From NCBI RefSeq assembly GCF_000063445.1, contig NC_009464.1:682001-746000 (forward strand): a stretch of 64,000 nucleotides of DNA, read 5' to 3'. This DNA comes from Methanocella arvoryzae MRE50. GTDB lineage: Archaea > Halobacteriota > Methanocellia > Methanocellales > Methanocellaceae. The notes under the pieces were generated by a model. The model was not told where the DNA came from, did not search any database, and saw nothing but the letters and a program-made list of their open reading frames with translations. The position numbers were made by a program, and so were the translations under genes. Shown here piece after piece: positions 4,472 through 18,275 of this stretch. Every line of letters begins with the position of its first letter. The stretch's first letter is position 1.

Positions 4472-5167
4472 TTAGACAGGCGCAGAGATCGACTGGATCT
4501 GCCCCTGTGCGACGACCATCAGGCGGTCGTCAGGAAGCTTTACCCATGGCGTGCCGTCAAGCACCTGGGTAGAGACCATTGTGCGGGCGCCCTGCCTGTG
4601 ATAGAGGTTCTGGTAGTACATGGGCTTTTCCGGGTGGTGGCCGAAAGCGTAGACGTTCGTGCCGTCCGAGAGCAGGAAGTTGAGCCGTATCTGCCGGCCG
4701 AACTCGTAGTCTTCGAAGAGGCTGGTGATCCCGTACTGCAGCCCCGACATCGCATCCCCCCGGTCTTCGATGTGGTCCATGAGAATGTGAAAGACAGTTT
4801 CAGAGTCAGTCTCCCCGGTGGCCATGGGGTGTACGTAGAGGCCGTCGACGTGCCCGTTATGGGCGAACACCCAGTCTTTGCCGTCGTAGTGGCGAACGAA
4901 CGGGTGGCAGTTACGCTCGTTCAGTTCCCCGCGGGAAGCGTGCCGGATGTGGGAGATGATGATGTCGCTCTCTGCCGCTTCTACTGCCTTGAAGTAGGTC
5001 TTGCTCAGCAATGCTTTCTCTGGTAGTTTCTGCATGACAGCTCCGCCTTGTCTGTAGTAGGCGATACCCCAGCCGTGCGGATTGCGGCAGGAGTGATCTG
5101 CGAACCTGTGGAGCGTGGAAATGGCCTTGCCTGGCCTGCTGAAGCTGATACCGTATAATTCGCACAT
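4472..5167 (-). CDS. Class II glutamine amidotransferase (GATase_4/YafJ type)
   Basis: 231 residues. The chain begins MCELYGISFS, so Cys2 becomes the N-terminal nucleophile after Met removal, as in Ntn-hydrolase glutaminases. Family motifs follow: HGWGIAYY (about 31-38), HIRHASRGE (about 73-81) and FAHNGHVDG (about 100-108), which shape the glutamine pocket. No synthase domain is attached, so the acceptor of the released ammonia is unknown. The nearest minus-strand neighbours do not suggest a pathway. An A/T box (AAATATTTAAAATATG) lies 40-55 bases upstream on the minus strand. Confidence 0.85.
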   Translation of the reverse strand: MCELYGISFSRPGKAISTLHRFADHSCRNPHGWGIAYYRQGGAVMQKLPEKALLSKTYFKAVEAAESDIIISHIRHASRGELNERNCHPFVRHYDGKDWVFAHNGHVDGLYVHPMATGETDSETVFHILMDHIEDRGDAMSGLQYGITSLFEDYEFGRQIRLNFLLSDGTNVYAFGHHPEKPMYYQNLYHRQGARTMVSTQVLDGTPWVKLPDDRLMVVAQGQIQSISAPV

Positions 5168-13528: not shown

Positions 13529-13827
13529 ATGGGGCAGCGGGTGGTCAGGATCGTCGCCAGATCGCCGGCATTTTTGATCGGGAAGTCACTCTTGTCGAGG
13601 TGCTCGATCAGGTCGTACATGGTCCACTGACTGCCTTTATTAGAGCACGCCATAGGGGTGGATTTGGGGAAAACCTTGAGCAGCTCGTCCTTGCTGGTGA
13701 TGGGGAACCGGATGCCCGCTCCTTCGACCATCTCCACAATCTTCACCTTCATCATGTCCAGCTCTTTGACAGCATTTGTGCCTGGCGCCTGAGAGTGCTC
13801 TGAGTATACTGGTTTGTCAATCGTCAA
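13525..13827 (-). CDS. MTH865-like family protein
   Basis: 100 residues. The region from about 22 to the end (MKVKIVEMVEGAGIRFPITS, then SKDELLKVFP, a Cys in MACSNKG, and MYDLIEHLDKSDFPIKNAGD) matches what is remembered of the MTH865-like family, small helical proteins of methanogens with an EF-hand-like fold and unknown function. The C-terminus T-T-R-C-P-I adds a second Cys. It lies convergent to the preceding plus-strand gene and divergent from the response regulator. Confidence 0.7.
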   Translation of the reverse strand: MTIDKPVYSEHSQAPGTNAVKELDMMKVKIVEMVEGAGIRFPITSKDELLKVFPKSTPMACSNKGSQWTMYDLIEHLDKSDFPIKNAGDLATILTTRCPI

Positions 13828-13996
13828 GATATCACCATATACGTATTAGACGAGGTTATTCAATAAGCTTCTCTATAATAGGCTGGTTCAGAAGCGATGA
13901 CACCCCCGCAGCAGTCCCTTCTTTTCCGAAATCGAATTACTAAAACCGGATTACAGCAATGTTTTTAATGTTTATGATGCATTAGATCACCTGTTT

Positions 13997-15072
13997 ATGA
14001 ATGAGCGTATCCTGATAGTCGAAGACGAAGCGATTGTTCTGCTGGACATTCGCAGTCGTCTCATCGGGCTCGGCTATAATGTCGTCGGAACAGCTTCGAC
14101 TGGCGAAGAAGCCATTGTCAAGGCTAACGCGACCAGGCCTGACGCGATACTGATGGACATCGGCCTCAAGGGCAACATAGACGGCATATCCGCGGCAGAG
14201 GAGATACGGAAGACACAGGATACCCCGATTATATATCTGACTGCCAATTCGGACATCACCACCCTTCAGCGGGCGAAGATCACCGGGCCTTTCGGCTATG
14301 TGCTCAAGCCGTTCGACGAGCGGGAGCTCAGGGTCACCATAGAAATGGCCTTGTACAAGCACCGCATGGATCGGGACCTGTACGACGCCCGGCAGTGGCT
14401 GAAAGTGACGCTCAGGAACATCGGCGAAGGCGTCATCGCCTCGGACGACTCCGGCGGTGTCAAGTTCATGAATACGGCCGCCGAAACGCTGACAGGCTGG
14501 GCACTTAAAGATGCGGCGGGGAAAGACGTCTACTCGATCTTCCGGCTGGAAGACATAGAGAAGACCCCGACTTGTGGTAACCAGGCCAGCCTGGTCAGCA
14601 AGGAAGGCCACAGGAGACCGATCGATTACATGCTGATCCCAATAGAGGATGACTGGGGCAGAGTAATGGGTACGATCGCGATCTTCAAGGATATCACAGA
14701 GCAGAAACAGGCAGAAAAAAACTGTCGATGGCGGAGGAGCAGCTATGCGCCATAACGACGTTGATATCAGACGCTATTTTTACCTGCGATTCAAGAGGCA
14801 GGATTAAGTGTGCTAATCCCGCCGCAGCCAGCCTGATTGGAATGAAGGCAGAAGCCATGGCAGAGAAAAATCTGCTGGATACGGGCATCTTCAGCGAGGC
14901 CGACGCCCGGAAGATCGCTTCGCTCTTTGAGAAGGCGCTGAGTACCGGCATCGCAGGCCGGGAAGTTGTCAGCCTGTCGGGAAAAGACGGTGCGGTTTCG
15001 GCGAGGACTATTCAGGCCATGGCCCTTAGAGCCGGGCAAGAGCCGATGCTGCTAGTGACTATCACATTTTGA
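13997..15072 (+). CDS. Response regulator-PAS-PAS protein, split by a -1 frameshift
   Basis: Residues 1-120 are a receiver domain: ILIVEDEAIVL (acidic pocket), ILMDIGLKG (phospho-Asp near residue 54), IIYLTA and GYVLKPFDE (conserved Lys). A PAS domain follows (about 135-240) with the closing DITEQK. Frame 0 then runs to a stop at 14757 with a meaningless tail. The -1 frame continues without a break as EKKLSMAEEQLCAIT and a second PAS domain (TCDSRGRIKCANPAAASLIG) to 15072. The switch point is A AAA AAC at 14716-14722. Joined length is about 358 residues, with no kinase or DNA-binding output, typical of methanogen signalling proteins. Could be programmed, mutated or a sequence error. Confidence 0.8.
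14716..14753 (+). promoter_or_regulatory. Candidate -1 ribosomal frameshift signal
   Basis: Frame 0 reads GAA AAA AAC, giving the heptamer A AAA AAC in the correct phase. A 5-base spacer (TGTCG) leads to ATGGCG, a 14-base loop, and CGCCAT. Slippery site, spacer and stem match the layout of known -1 signals; the 6-bp stem is weak. Confidence 0.5.
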
Positions 15073-15484
15073 TGTAATCAATAACTTAGAGTTTGTCCTG
15101 TAGGGCTCCGCATGTCGAAGACCGAAGGACGAAAGTTATGCGATCCATATAAACTCTGGTAAAAAAATGGGAGGGCGGCGATTTGAGGCTCGCCGCGGGC
15201 CTTTGATGTTTAGCCCCTCTGGATACTACTGGTGCTTCCGTGGATGGAGTCAAACCGTATTGGTGTCAGCCTTGACTTGATTGTGATTGGATTGTACGTA
15301 TCAGTTCTGCCCTGGCCGGGCTTCACCTTTTACAATATTGAGTAGAACTCAGAACTATAAAGGTATTTTGTATTTTCCGGATAATTACAATTTTGGAAAT
15401 TAAATTCGTCAGATAAAGAAAATGTTAAATAGCTATTGCCGGTCTGGAACGATCAACTAAAATATGAAAGAACATTATTATTTA
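15073..15484. other. Non-coding gap after the response regulator
   Basis: No convincing open frame or RNA gene is seen. A short stem (GCGGCGA at 15175-15181 with TCGCCGC at 15190-15196) lies in a GC-rich part (about 15165-15340); the remainder, up to the tandem array, is AT-rich. Confidence 0.4.
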
Positions 15485-15718
15485 TCAGGCCATATGTGAG
15501 CCTGCACTCAGGCTATATAAGAGCCTGCACTCAGGCTATATAAGAGCCTGCACTCAGGCTATATAAGAGCCTGCACTCAGGCTATATAAGAGCCTGCACT
15601 CAGGCTATATAAGAGCCTGCACTCAGGCTATATAAGAGCCTGCACTCAGGCTATATAAGAGCCTGCACTCAGGCTATATAAGAGCCTGCACTCAGGCCGT
15701 ATGAGAGCCTGCAGTCAG
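15485..15718. repeat. 23-bp tandem repeat array, about ten units
   Basis: Eight identical 23-bp units run from 15498 to 15681, then one variant (15682-15704) and a partial unit (to 15718); a diverged partial unit precedes (15485-15497). Each unit is AGCCTG-CACT-CAGGCT, a small hairpin, followed by ATATAAG, which resembles a TATA box. There are no spacers, so it is not a CRISPR. The last units overlap the 3' end of the TPR gene on the minus strand and supply its stop codon. Confidence 0.9.
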
Positions 15719-16724: not shown

Positions 16725-16746
16725 TATGCGCTTAAATAAGCGCATA
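16725..16746. repeat. 22-bp palindrome at the transposase start codon
   Basis: TATGCGCTTA, AA, TAAGCGCATA; the last base is the A of the ATG. A related TATGCGCCTA ends at 18274 by the stop codon, so the outer halves could be the element's terminal repeats (9 of 10 bases). As RNA it would mask the start codon. Confidence 0.6.
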
Positions 16747-18275
16747 TGAAGAGTAGTGTGAGGGTTAAACGGATCAACGGTAAGGAGTACCTGTACGAGG
16801 ACACGCCATACTATGATAAGGAGAAAAAACAGATCCGGCATCGCTCACGCTATCTTGGTAAAAACGTTGATGGTAAACCGGTTAAGAAGGTTAAGGCTCC
16901 GAGGAACACGTATCATTACGGTGAGTTTTTACCGTTGCTCGATACGGTGAAGAAACTGGGATTGGAAGAGATCCTCTCCGAGTACCTCAGTGATGAGAAG
17001 GCCAGAATGCTTTTAGCGTTGAGCTTTAACCGGGTGGTCCGTCCCTTGCCGTTCTACCAGGCAGCGTCATGGTATGAGACTACATGGCTCCAGAATGAAT
17101 GGGGACTGGACCTCTCGGGGCCACGGATCAGCGAACTCTTGTCTATGATCGGGGAGAGCAGCATACCAGATAAATTCGCCCGGAGATTGATTGAGAGGGA
17201 TGCACCCCAGGGCTCTTTAATCTATGATATTACCAGCATATCCAGCTACTCCCGGCAGATCGGGTTGTTAGAGCATGGGTATAACCGGGAGCATACCGAC
17301 ACCAGACAAGTGAACATGGGCCTGGTTATAGATAAAGAGAAGACGATACCTCTGCTGTATGACGTCTACCCGGGAAGTATTACAGATGTGTCCACTCTTC
17401 TTAACACTGTTAAGAAGATGAGGGCGATGGGTGTTCAGGATTGTACTCTCATTCTTGACCGGGGGTTCTTCAGCACTGGCAATATCGACGAGCTCATGAA
17501 AAGCACTTTGAAATTCGTGGTTCCGGCCACATATCAACTGAAAACTGTCAAACAACTGGTATCCAAGATGCATCGTAGTATCAATGATCCTAACAATCTT
17601 CACATGTACGGTAAAGAAACCCTGTTCGTTAAAAGCGTAGAGTTGGATGTGGGAGAACACTGTTTGAAAGGCTATTGTTACTATAGTCTACGGAAAGAGC
17701 ATGGCGACGAGGACTCGTTCTACAGGAAGCTGCATGACCTGAAAGCACGCCTGGAACGCTTCGAACTGAAAAAATGGATGAAACCCTACCACGTATTCCA
17801 GGAGACCTGCGCAGGGTACACGCAATACTTCACATGGAAACTGGTTGAGGGACGGTTCCAGGTAAAAATTAAGAAGAATGCTGTGGCTCAACGGGTAAAC
17901 AAGATGGGATTGTACATCCTTTTCACTAATGATACCCTGTCATGGGATGAATGTCTCAGCACATATAAAAGCCGTGACCTGGTCGAAAAAGGATTCGACA
18001 TCCTTAAGAACGACCTGGAAGCCAGACCCCTGAACATACAGAAAGAGAGCACGCTTAAAGGACTCCTGTTCGTAAATTTCCTGAGCCTCATCCTAAAAAT
18101 GAGACTGCTCCGTATGATGAAAGACACCGGCCTCCACGAAAAATACACTATCGACTCATTGCTGTTCGAACTGGAAAAGATCAAGAAAATAGAACTTGAA
18201 GACGGCACCCAGGTGACCACTGAATTGACGAAAAAGCACAAAGAACTCCTGAAACCACTAGGATTATGCGCCTAA
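16746..18275 (+). CDS. IS1634/IS4-like DDE transposase
   Basis: 509 residues. The N-terminal region (RHRSRYLGKNVDGKP) and helical region (KARMLLALSFNRVVRPLPF) precede an RNase H-like catalytic core: first Asp in LIYDITSISS, second in LILDRGFFSTG, and Glu in LVEKGFDILKNDLEARP. This is the IS4-superfamily layout, closest to IS1634. The frame is intact from end to end, so the element may be active or recent. No transposon-typical passenger genes are seen. The ends are not certain: candidate 10-bp inverted repeats lie almost at the start and stop codons. A TTAAATATTTTAT stretch upstream could be the promoter. Confidence 0.85.
   Translation: MKSSVRVKRINGKEYLYEDTPYYDKEKKQIRHRSRYLGKNVDGKPVKKVKAPRNTYHYGEFLPLLDTVKKLGLEEILSEYLSDEKARMLLALSFNRVVRPLPFYQAASWYETTWLQNEWGLDLSGPRISELLSMIGESSIPDKFARRLIERDAPQGSLIYDITSISSYSRQIGLLEHGYNREHTDTRQVNMGLVIDKEKTIPLLYDVYPGSITDVSTLLNTVKKMRAMGVQDCTLILDRGFFSTGNIDELMKSTLKFVVPATYQLKTVKQLVSKMHRSINDPNNLHMYGKETLFVKSVELDVGEHCLKGYCYYSLRKEHGDEDSFYRKLHDLKARLERFELKKWMKPYHVFQETCAGYTQYFTWKLVEGRFQVKIKKNAVAQRVNKMGLYILFTNDTLSWDECLSTYKSRDLVEKGFDILKNDLEARPLNIQKESTLKGLLFVNFLSLILKMRLLRMMKDTGLHEKYTIDSLLFELEKIKKIELEDGTQVTTELTKKHKELLKPLGLCA

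Follow-up and report, generated by a model that had tools for sequence, protein, structure and literature searches.

A frame break in a REC-PAS-PAS regulator gene of Methanocella arvoryzae MRE50 is probably a one-base loss in an A-run rather than a programmed frameshift

REC-PAS and REC-PAS-PAS regulators without an output domain are a known archaeal class, found mostly in methanogens (Galperin et al. 2018, PMC5847659). As for -1 frameshifting in archaea, a 2021 review listed one reported case, fucA1, in addition to viral ones (PMC8211752), and likely magnesium chelatase cases have been described in Methanocaldococcus and Methanococcus (Atkins et al. 2016, PMC5009743). For singleton frameshifts with BLASTp and Pfam validation, Antonov et al. 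(2013, PMC3711429) considered a sequencing error or an indel mutation the likely cause. The locus analyzed here, located in the single-contig genome (3,179,916 bp) of M. arvoryzae MRE50, encodes the same REC domain and PAS domain, followed by no output domain, as the archaeal regulators (cf. PMC5847659), but its second PAS domain lies out of frame by -1. It resembles Saccharolobus solfataricus fucA1 (Cobucci-Ponzano et al. 2006; reviewed in PMC8211752) in having -1 overlapping ORFs, a putative stem-loop, and an A-rich phased heptamer, which ends with AAT in fucA1 and with AAC here. However, experiments have demonstrated the fucA1 product, and near relatives of that gene are available for comparison, whereas a fused product of the present gene is hypothetical and the frame break is not conserved. 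Like the singleton frameshifted genes of GeneTack (PMC3711429), it was found in a single genome and is supported by continuous homologs and Pfam matches, though in contrast to them the break coincides with an A AAA AAC heptamer and a modest hairpin. A literature search for MRE50 proteomics or frameshifts found nothing on this gene.

Within the 64-kb window, i.e., the whole stretch of DNA analyzed, this was the sole overlapping pair of coding-like ORFs with a homopolymer of at least seven bases inside the overlap (cf. Table 1). A preliminary description of the locus had proposed that ORF1 ends in a short tail unless the frame is changed and that a second PAS domain follows in the -1 frame, and both points were borne out: past the frame break, ORF1 continues for 11 residues (NCRWRRSSYAP) up to its stop codon, and the -1 frame remains open through a domain recognized by Pfam. 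On inspection, each of the five PAS strands could be assigned in this second domain, and the stop codon follows just after the last strand. The codon score amounted to 0.42 bits/codon for ORF1 and 0.20 for ORF2, while the other two frames over ORF2 gave -0.75 and -0.28. Since ORF2 has no internal stop, coding-like codon use, and a recognizable PAS fold, it does not appear to be long decayed. Truncation of the ORF2 end by a repeated insertion was considered and rejected; the 441 bp from 15040 are single-copy in the genome.

Table 1 Features of the REC-PAS//PAS locus (positions within the window)
Feature	Position	Strand	Evidence
ORF1, REC-PAS response regulator, 252 aa, frame 0, stop TAA at 14755	13997..14755	+	Pfam Response_reg 3.9e-23, PAS 4.8e-08
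Run of seven A at the frame change, followed by C; inferred ancestral run of eight (GAA AAA AAA CTG)	14715..14721	+	sequence; linker consensus (E9 in frame 0, L12 in frame -1)
A AAA AAC heptamer, in phase with ORF1	14716..14722	+	sequence
Possible hairpin, ATGGCG (14728-14733) / CGCCAT (14748-14753), 14-nt loop	14728..14753	+	predicted fold
ORF2, second PAS domain, -1 frame, 114 aa from ATG 14728, open until TGA 15072	14728..15072	+	Pfam PAS_4 7.8e-07

The strongest indication of what the gene once looked like came from the linker between the two PAS domains. Measured from the Asp in D-I-T to the one in the following domain, it comprises 27 residues in 25 of the 26 homologous linkers, and joining the two frames of MRE50 at the A-run yields a linker of exactly 27 residues (DIT to DAI). 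In the linker consensus (n = 24), Glu occupies position 9 (22/24) and position 16 (20/24), while Leu occupies position 12 (20/24), none of these positions being fixed by the search pattern. Here, Glu 9 is encoded in frame 0 just 5' of the A-run, whereas Leu 12 and Glu 16 are encoded in frame -1 just 3' of it. The linker length and these three residues uphold the earlier proposal that the two ORFs can be joined as one protein with the frame change at the A-run. At the sequence level, the comparison demonstrates the derivation of ORF1 and ORF2 from a single ancestral REC-PAS-PAS gene, in which the frame would have been changed by one base inside the A-run, the simplest ancestor being GAA AAA AAA CTG with eight A.

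The homologs are continuous across the site and do not share the frameshift. Eighty-nine of the 99 distinct homologous linkers remain open over 60 codons or more beyond the site, and the three other REC-PAS genes of MRE50 found by the search are open for 519, 841, and 699 aa. A phased X XXY YYZ motif of any kind is present nearby in 9/99 linkers and an A-run of at least seven in 3/99; two of the latter continue in the same frame over 975 codons, and L114, the third, stops early and is closed in the -1 frame too. The heptamer together with a -1 switch was found in none of the 99 linkers, and no early-ending REC-PAS homolog had a second PAS domain in the -1 frame. Searching the order (four genomes) and further relatives for an ortholog returned only paralogs and distant homologs with at most 54% identity. 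Among such paralogs and distant homologs, uninterrupted frames lacking a slippery site were seen, which is the outcome that the preliminary description had named as a refutation of its proposal. The frameshift signal had no counterpart among the genomes compared. Separately, the frame of one REC-PAS homolog from a KSB1 bacterium (L096, metagenome bin) ends around position 4918 and resumes in the +1 frame, over 877 codons, a break unrelated to the MRE50 site in both position and direction.

The nearest genome, and the only other one of the same genus that we compared (G001, which matches Methanocella sp. PtaU1.Bin125), encodes a 307-aa protein, an MTH865-like protein, and a TPR protein in the same order as around the MRE50 gene. 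The REC-PAS//PAS gene is absent from this conserved neighborhood: about 1.3 kb of MRE50 (roughly 13827-15162, spanning the whole gene) corresponds to about 170 bp in G001 without clear similarity. Judging from this gene order, the gene is either a gain of the MRE50 lineage or a loss in that of G001.

According to the preliminary description, the site was a textbook programmed -1 frameshift signal. Its elements are indeed present: ORF1 reads GAA (14714-16) AAA (14717-19) AAC (14720-22) across the run, which places an X XXY YYZ heptamer in the ORF1 phase, as in a programmed -1 site, and after a 5-nt spacer ATGGCG is able to form a 6-bp stem with CGCCAT. The proposed slip product EKKLSM was wrong, because the A site decodes AAC (Asn) ahead of the slip and canonical tandem slippage would yield ...EKNLSMAEEQL; EKKLSM would require an eighth A, be it in DNA or in RNA, in which case the peptide LSMAEEQLCAITTLISDAIFTCDSR (after K) is to be expected. 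Nor did the idea that the frame change is programmed find support. Whenever GAA AAA AAA C loses one A, what remains is a phased A AAA AAC, and the heptamer therefore provides no independent support for programming. The motif is not enriched in the genome either, which contains 23 GAAAAAAAC sites as compared with 27 for the same pattern read backwards. At least six of the 23 sites (L137, L141, L144, L148, L149, and L151) are phased inside long open frames, taken as genes from open frame and translation only, that run 237-837 nt beyond the heptamer without switching. One of them (L149) has a hairpin of -11.9 kcal/mol directly 3' of the heptamer, versus -13.6 kcal/mol at the ORF1 site.

The latter value applies to 14723-14760, for which the predicted fold adds three pairs across a bulge. 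The folding z score was -2.25 at 38 nt, -1.90 at 50 nt, and +0.37 at 78 nt (14723-14800), and equally good folding was seen in 4.3% of random windows at 38 nt, 16.7% at 50 nt, and 38.8% at 80 nt. On these predictions the stem would be only mildly unusual, near background, and ordinary at 80 nt. Near the site, no Rfam family scored above the curated threshold. When viral contigs were scanned for the flanks of the site with 6-10 bases between them, 20 short matches were obtained; in a collection of this size, chance alone should produce matches to 17 specified bases.

We conclude that the frame break most probably represents a singleton loss of one base in the A-run, by mutation or by sequencing or assembly error (probability about 0.84; like those of all other readings, it is a rounded judgment and not a computed value), and we infer that programming is absent. 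A continuous ancestral REC-PAS-PAS gene with an in-frame run of eight A would have lost one of them, converting GAA AAA AAA CTG into GAA AAA AAC TGT. A real mutation in the organism, meaning truncation or recent pseudogenization of a lineage-specific regulator paralog, has about even odds. The main product would then be the 252-aa REC-PAS protein, a form that other archaea also encode, and the fused form would be made at most by low-level, unprogrammed leakage. Since several REC-PAS relatives finish shortly past the first PAS domain, the 252-aa form need not be useless. That the published sequence omits an A present in the genome is a less probable, though serious, possibility, in which case the true protein would be an ordinary 359-aa REC-PAS-PAS response regulator. 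Two observations speak against a one-base loss: (i) a heptamer and a hairpin at a 5-nt spacing co-occur, as in a real shift site, and (ii) ORF2 is free of internal stops and coding-like, with a recognizable PAS domain and no sign of long decay.

Programmed -1 ribosomal frameshifting is an alternative reading. In that case tRNA-Lys and tRNA-Asn would slip on A AAA AAC with the aid of the hairpin, and one mRNA would give both REC-PAS (252 aa) and REC-PAS-PAS (359 aa, ...EKNLSM...), the latter recognizable by the fusion peptide NLSMAEEQLCAITTLISDAIFTCDSR. The phased heptamer, the spacer, a stem of -9 to -13.6 kcal/mol, and a genuine PAS domain in the downstream frame agree with it, as do the A_AAA_AAC shift site reported for the haloarchaeal virus HCTV-2 (PMC5009743) and the use of A-AAA-AAT by Saccharolobus fucA1 (PMC8211752). 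However, in E. coli shifting occurs far less readily on A_AAA_AAC than on A_AAA_AAG (PMC5009743), inspection revealed no Shine-Dalgarno-like sequence upstream of the shift site, and the automatic origin of the heptamer from a one-A loss, the nonswitching frames that carry it (including the one with its own hairpin), the disappearance of the stem signal in longer windows, and the lack of conservation in homologs render programming unlikely. We regard it as even less likely that these are two overlapping genes, with ORF2 starting at its ATG, 25-27 nt ahead of the ORF1 stop codon, by coupling or internal initiation and giving a stand-alone PAS protein with the N-terminal peptide (M)AEEQLCAITTLISDAIFTCDSR. 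While an in-frame ATG just 3' of the A-run and the coding signal of ORF2 would suit such an arrangement, no Shine-Dalgarno-like sequence was seen by inspection just 5' of this ATG, the linker length and the consensus residues on both sides of the run fit a single continuous protein, and the early-ending REC-PAS homologs have no second PAS domain in the -1 frame. Transcriptional slippage, by which RNA polymerase would add an A in the A7 run so that a fraction of the transcripts encodes ...EKKLSM... and both PAS domains in one frame, is very improbable: a homopolymer does lie exactly at the frame change, but realignment sites are often homopolymers of at least eight (PMC3711429), the run here has seven, and the feature is not conserved.

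A programmed event at this site would be among very few on archaeal chromosomes and, to our knowledge, the first in an archaeal signaling protein. As an indel, the case has mainly annotation value, and the proper name of the gene would be frameshifted REC-PAS-PAS regulator. It also calls for caution, as an in-frame A8 of such phase turns into a textbook slippery heptamer whenever one A is lost.

Several other elements were noticed downstream of the gene. At 15162-15275 lies a 110-bp intergenic element that shares 82% identity with a sequence at the equivalent position of G001 (C216:9349-9455); a search of 39 other relatives did not detect it. The element may represent a short ORF (about 37 codons, MGGRRFEARRG...) or else an RNA; it had no Rfam match and folded no better than shuffled sequences. 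A tandem array of about 10 copies of a 23-bp unit (TCAGGCTATATAAGAGCCTGCAC; 96% matches), which contains the short inverted repeat GCCTG..CAGGC, occupies 15485-15718 and extends into the 3' end of the TPR gene; it is absent from the corresponding stretch of G001. Farther downstream, at 16746-18275, there is an apparently intact transposase of the IS1634 family (509 aa; NCBIfam 8.9e-94).
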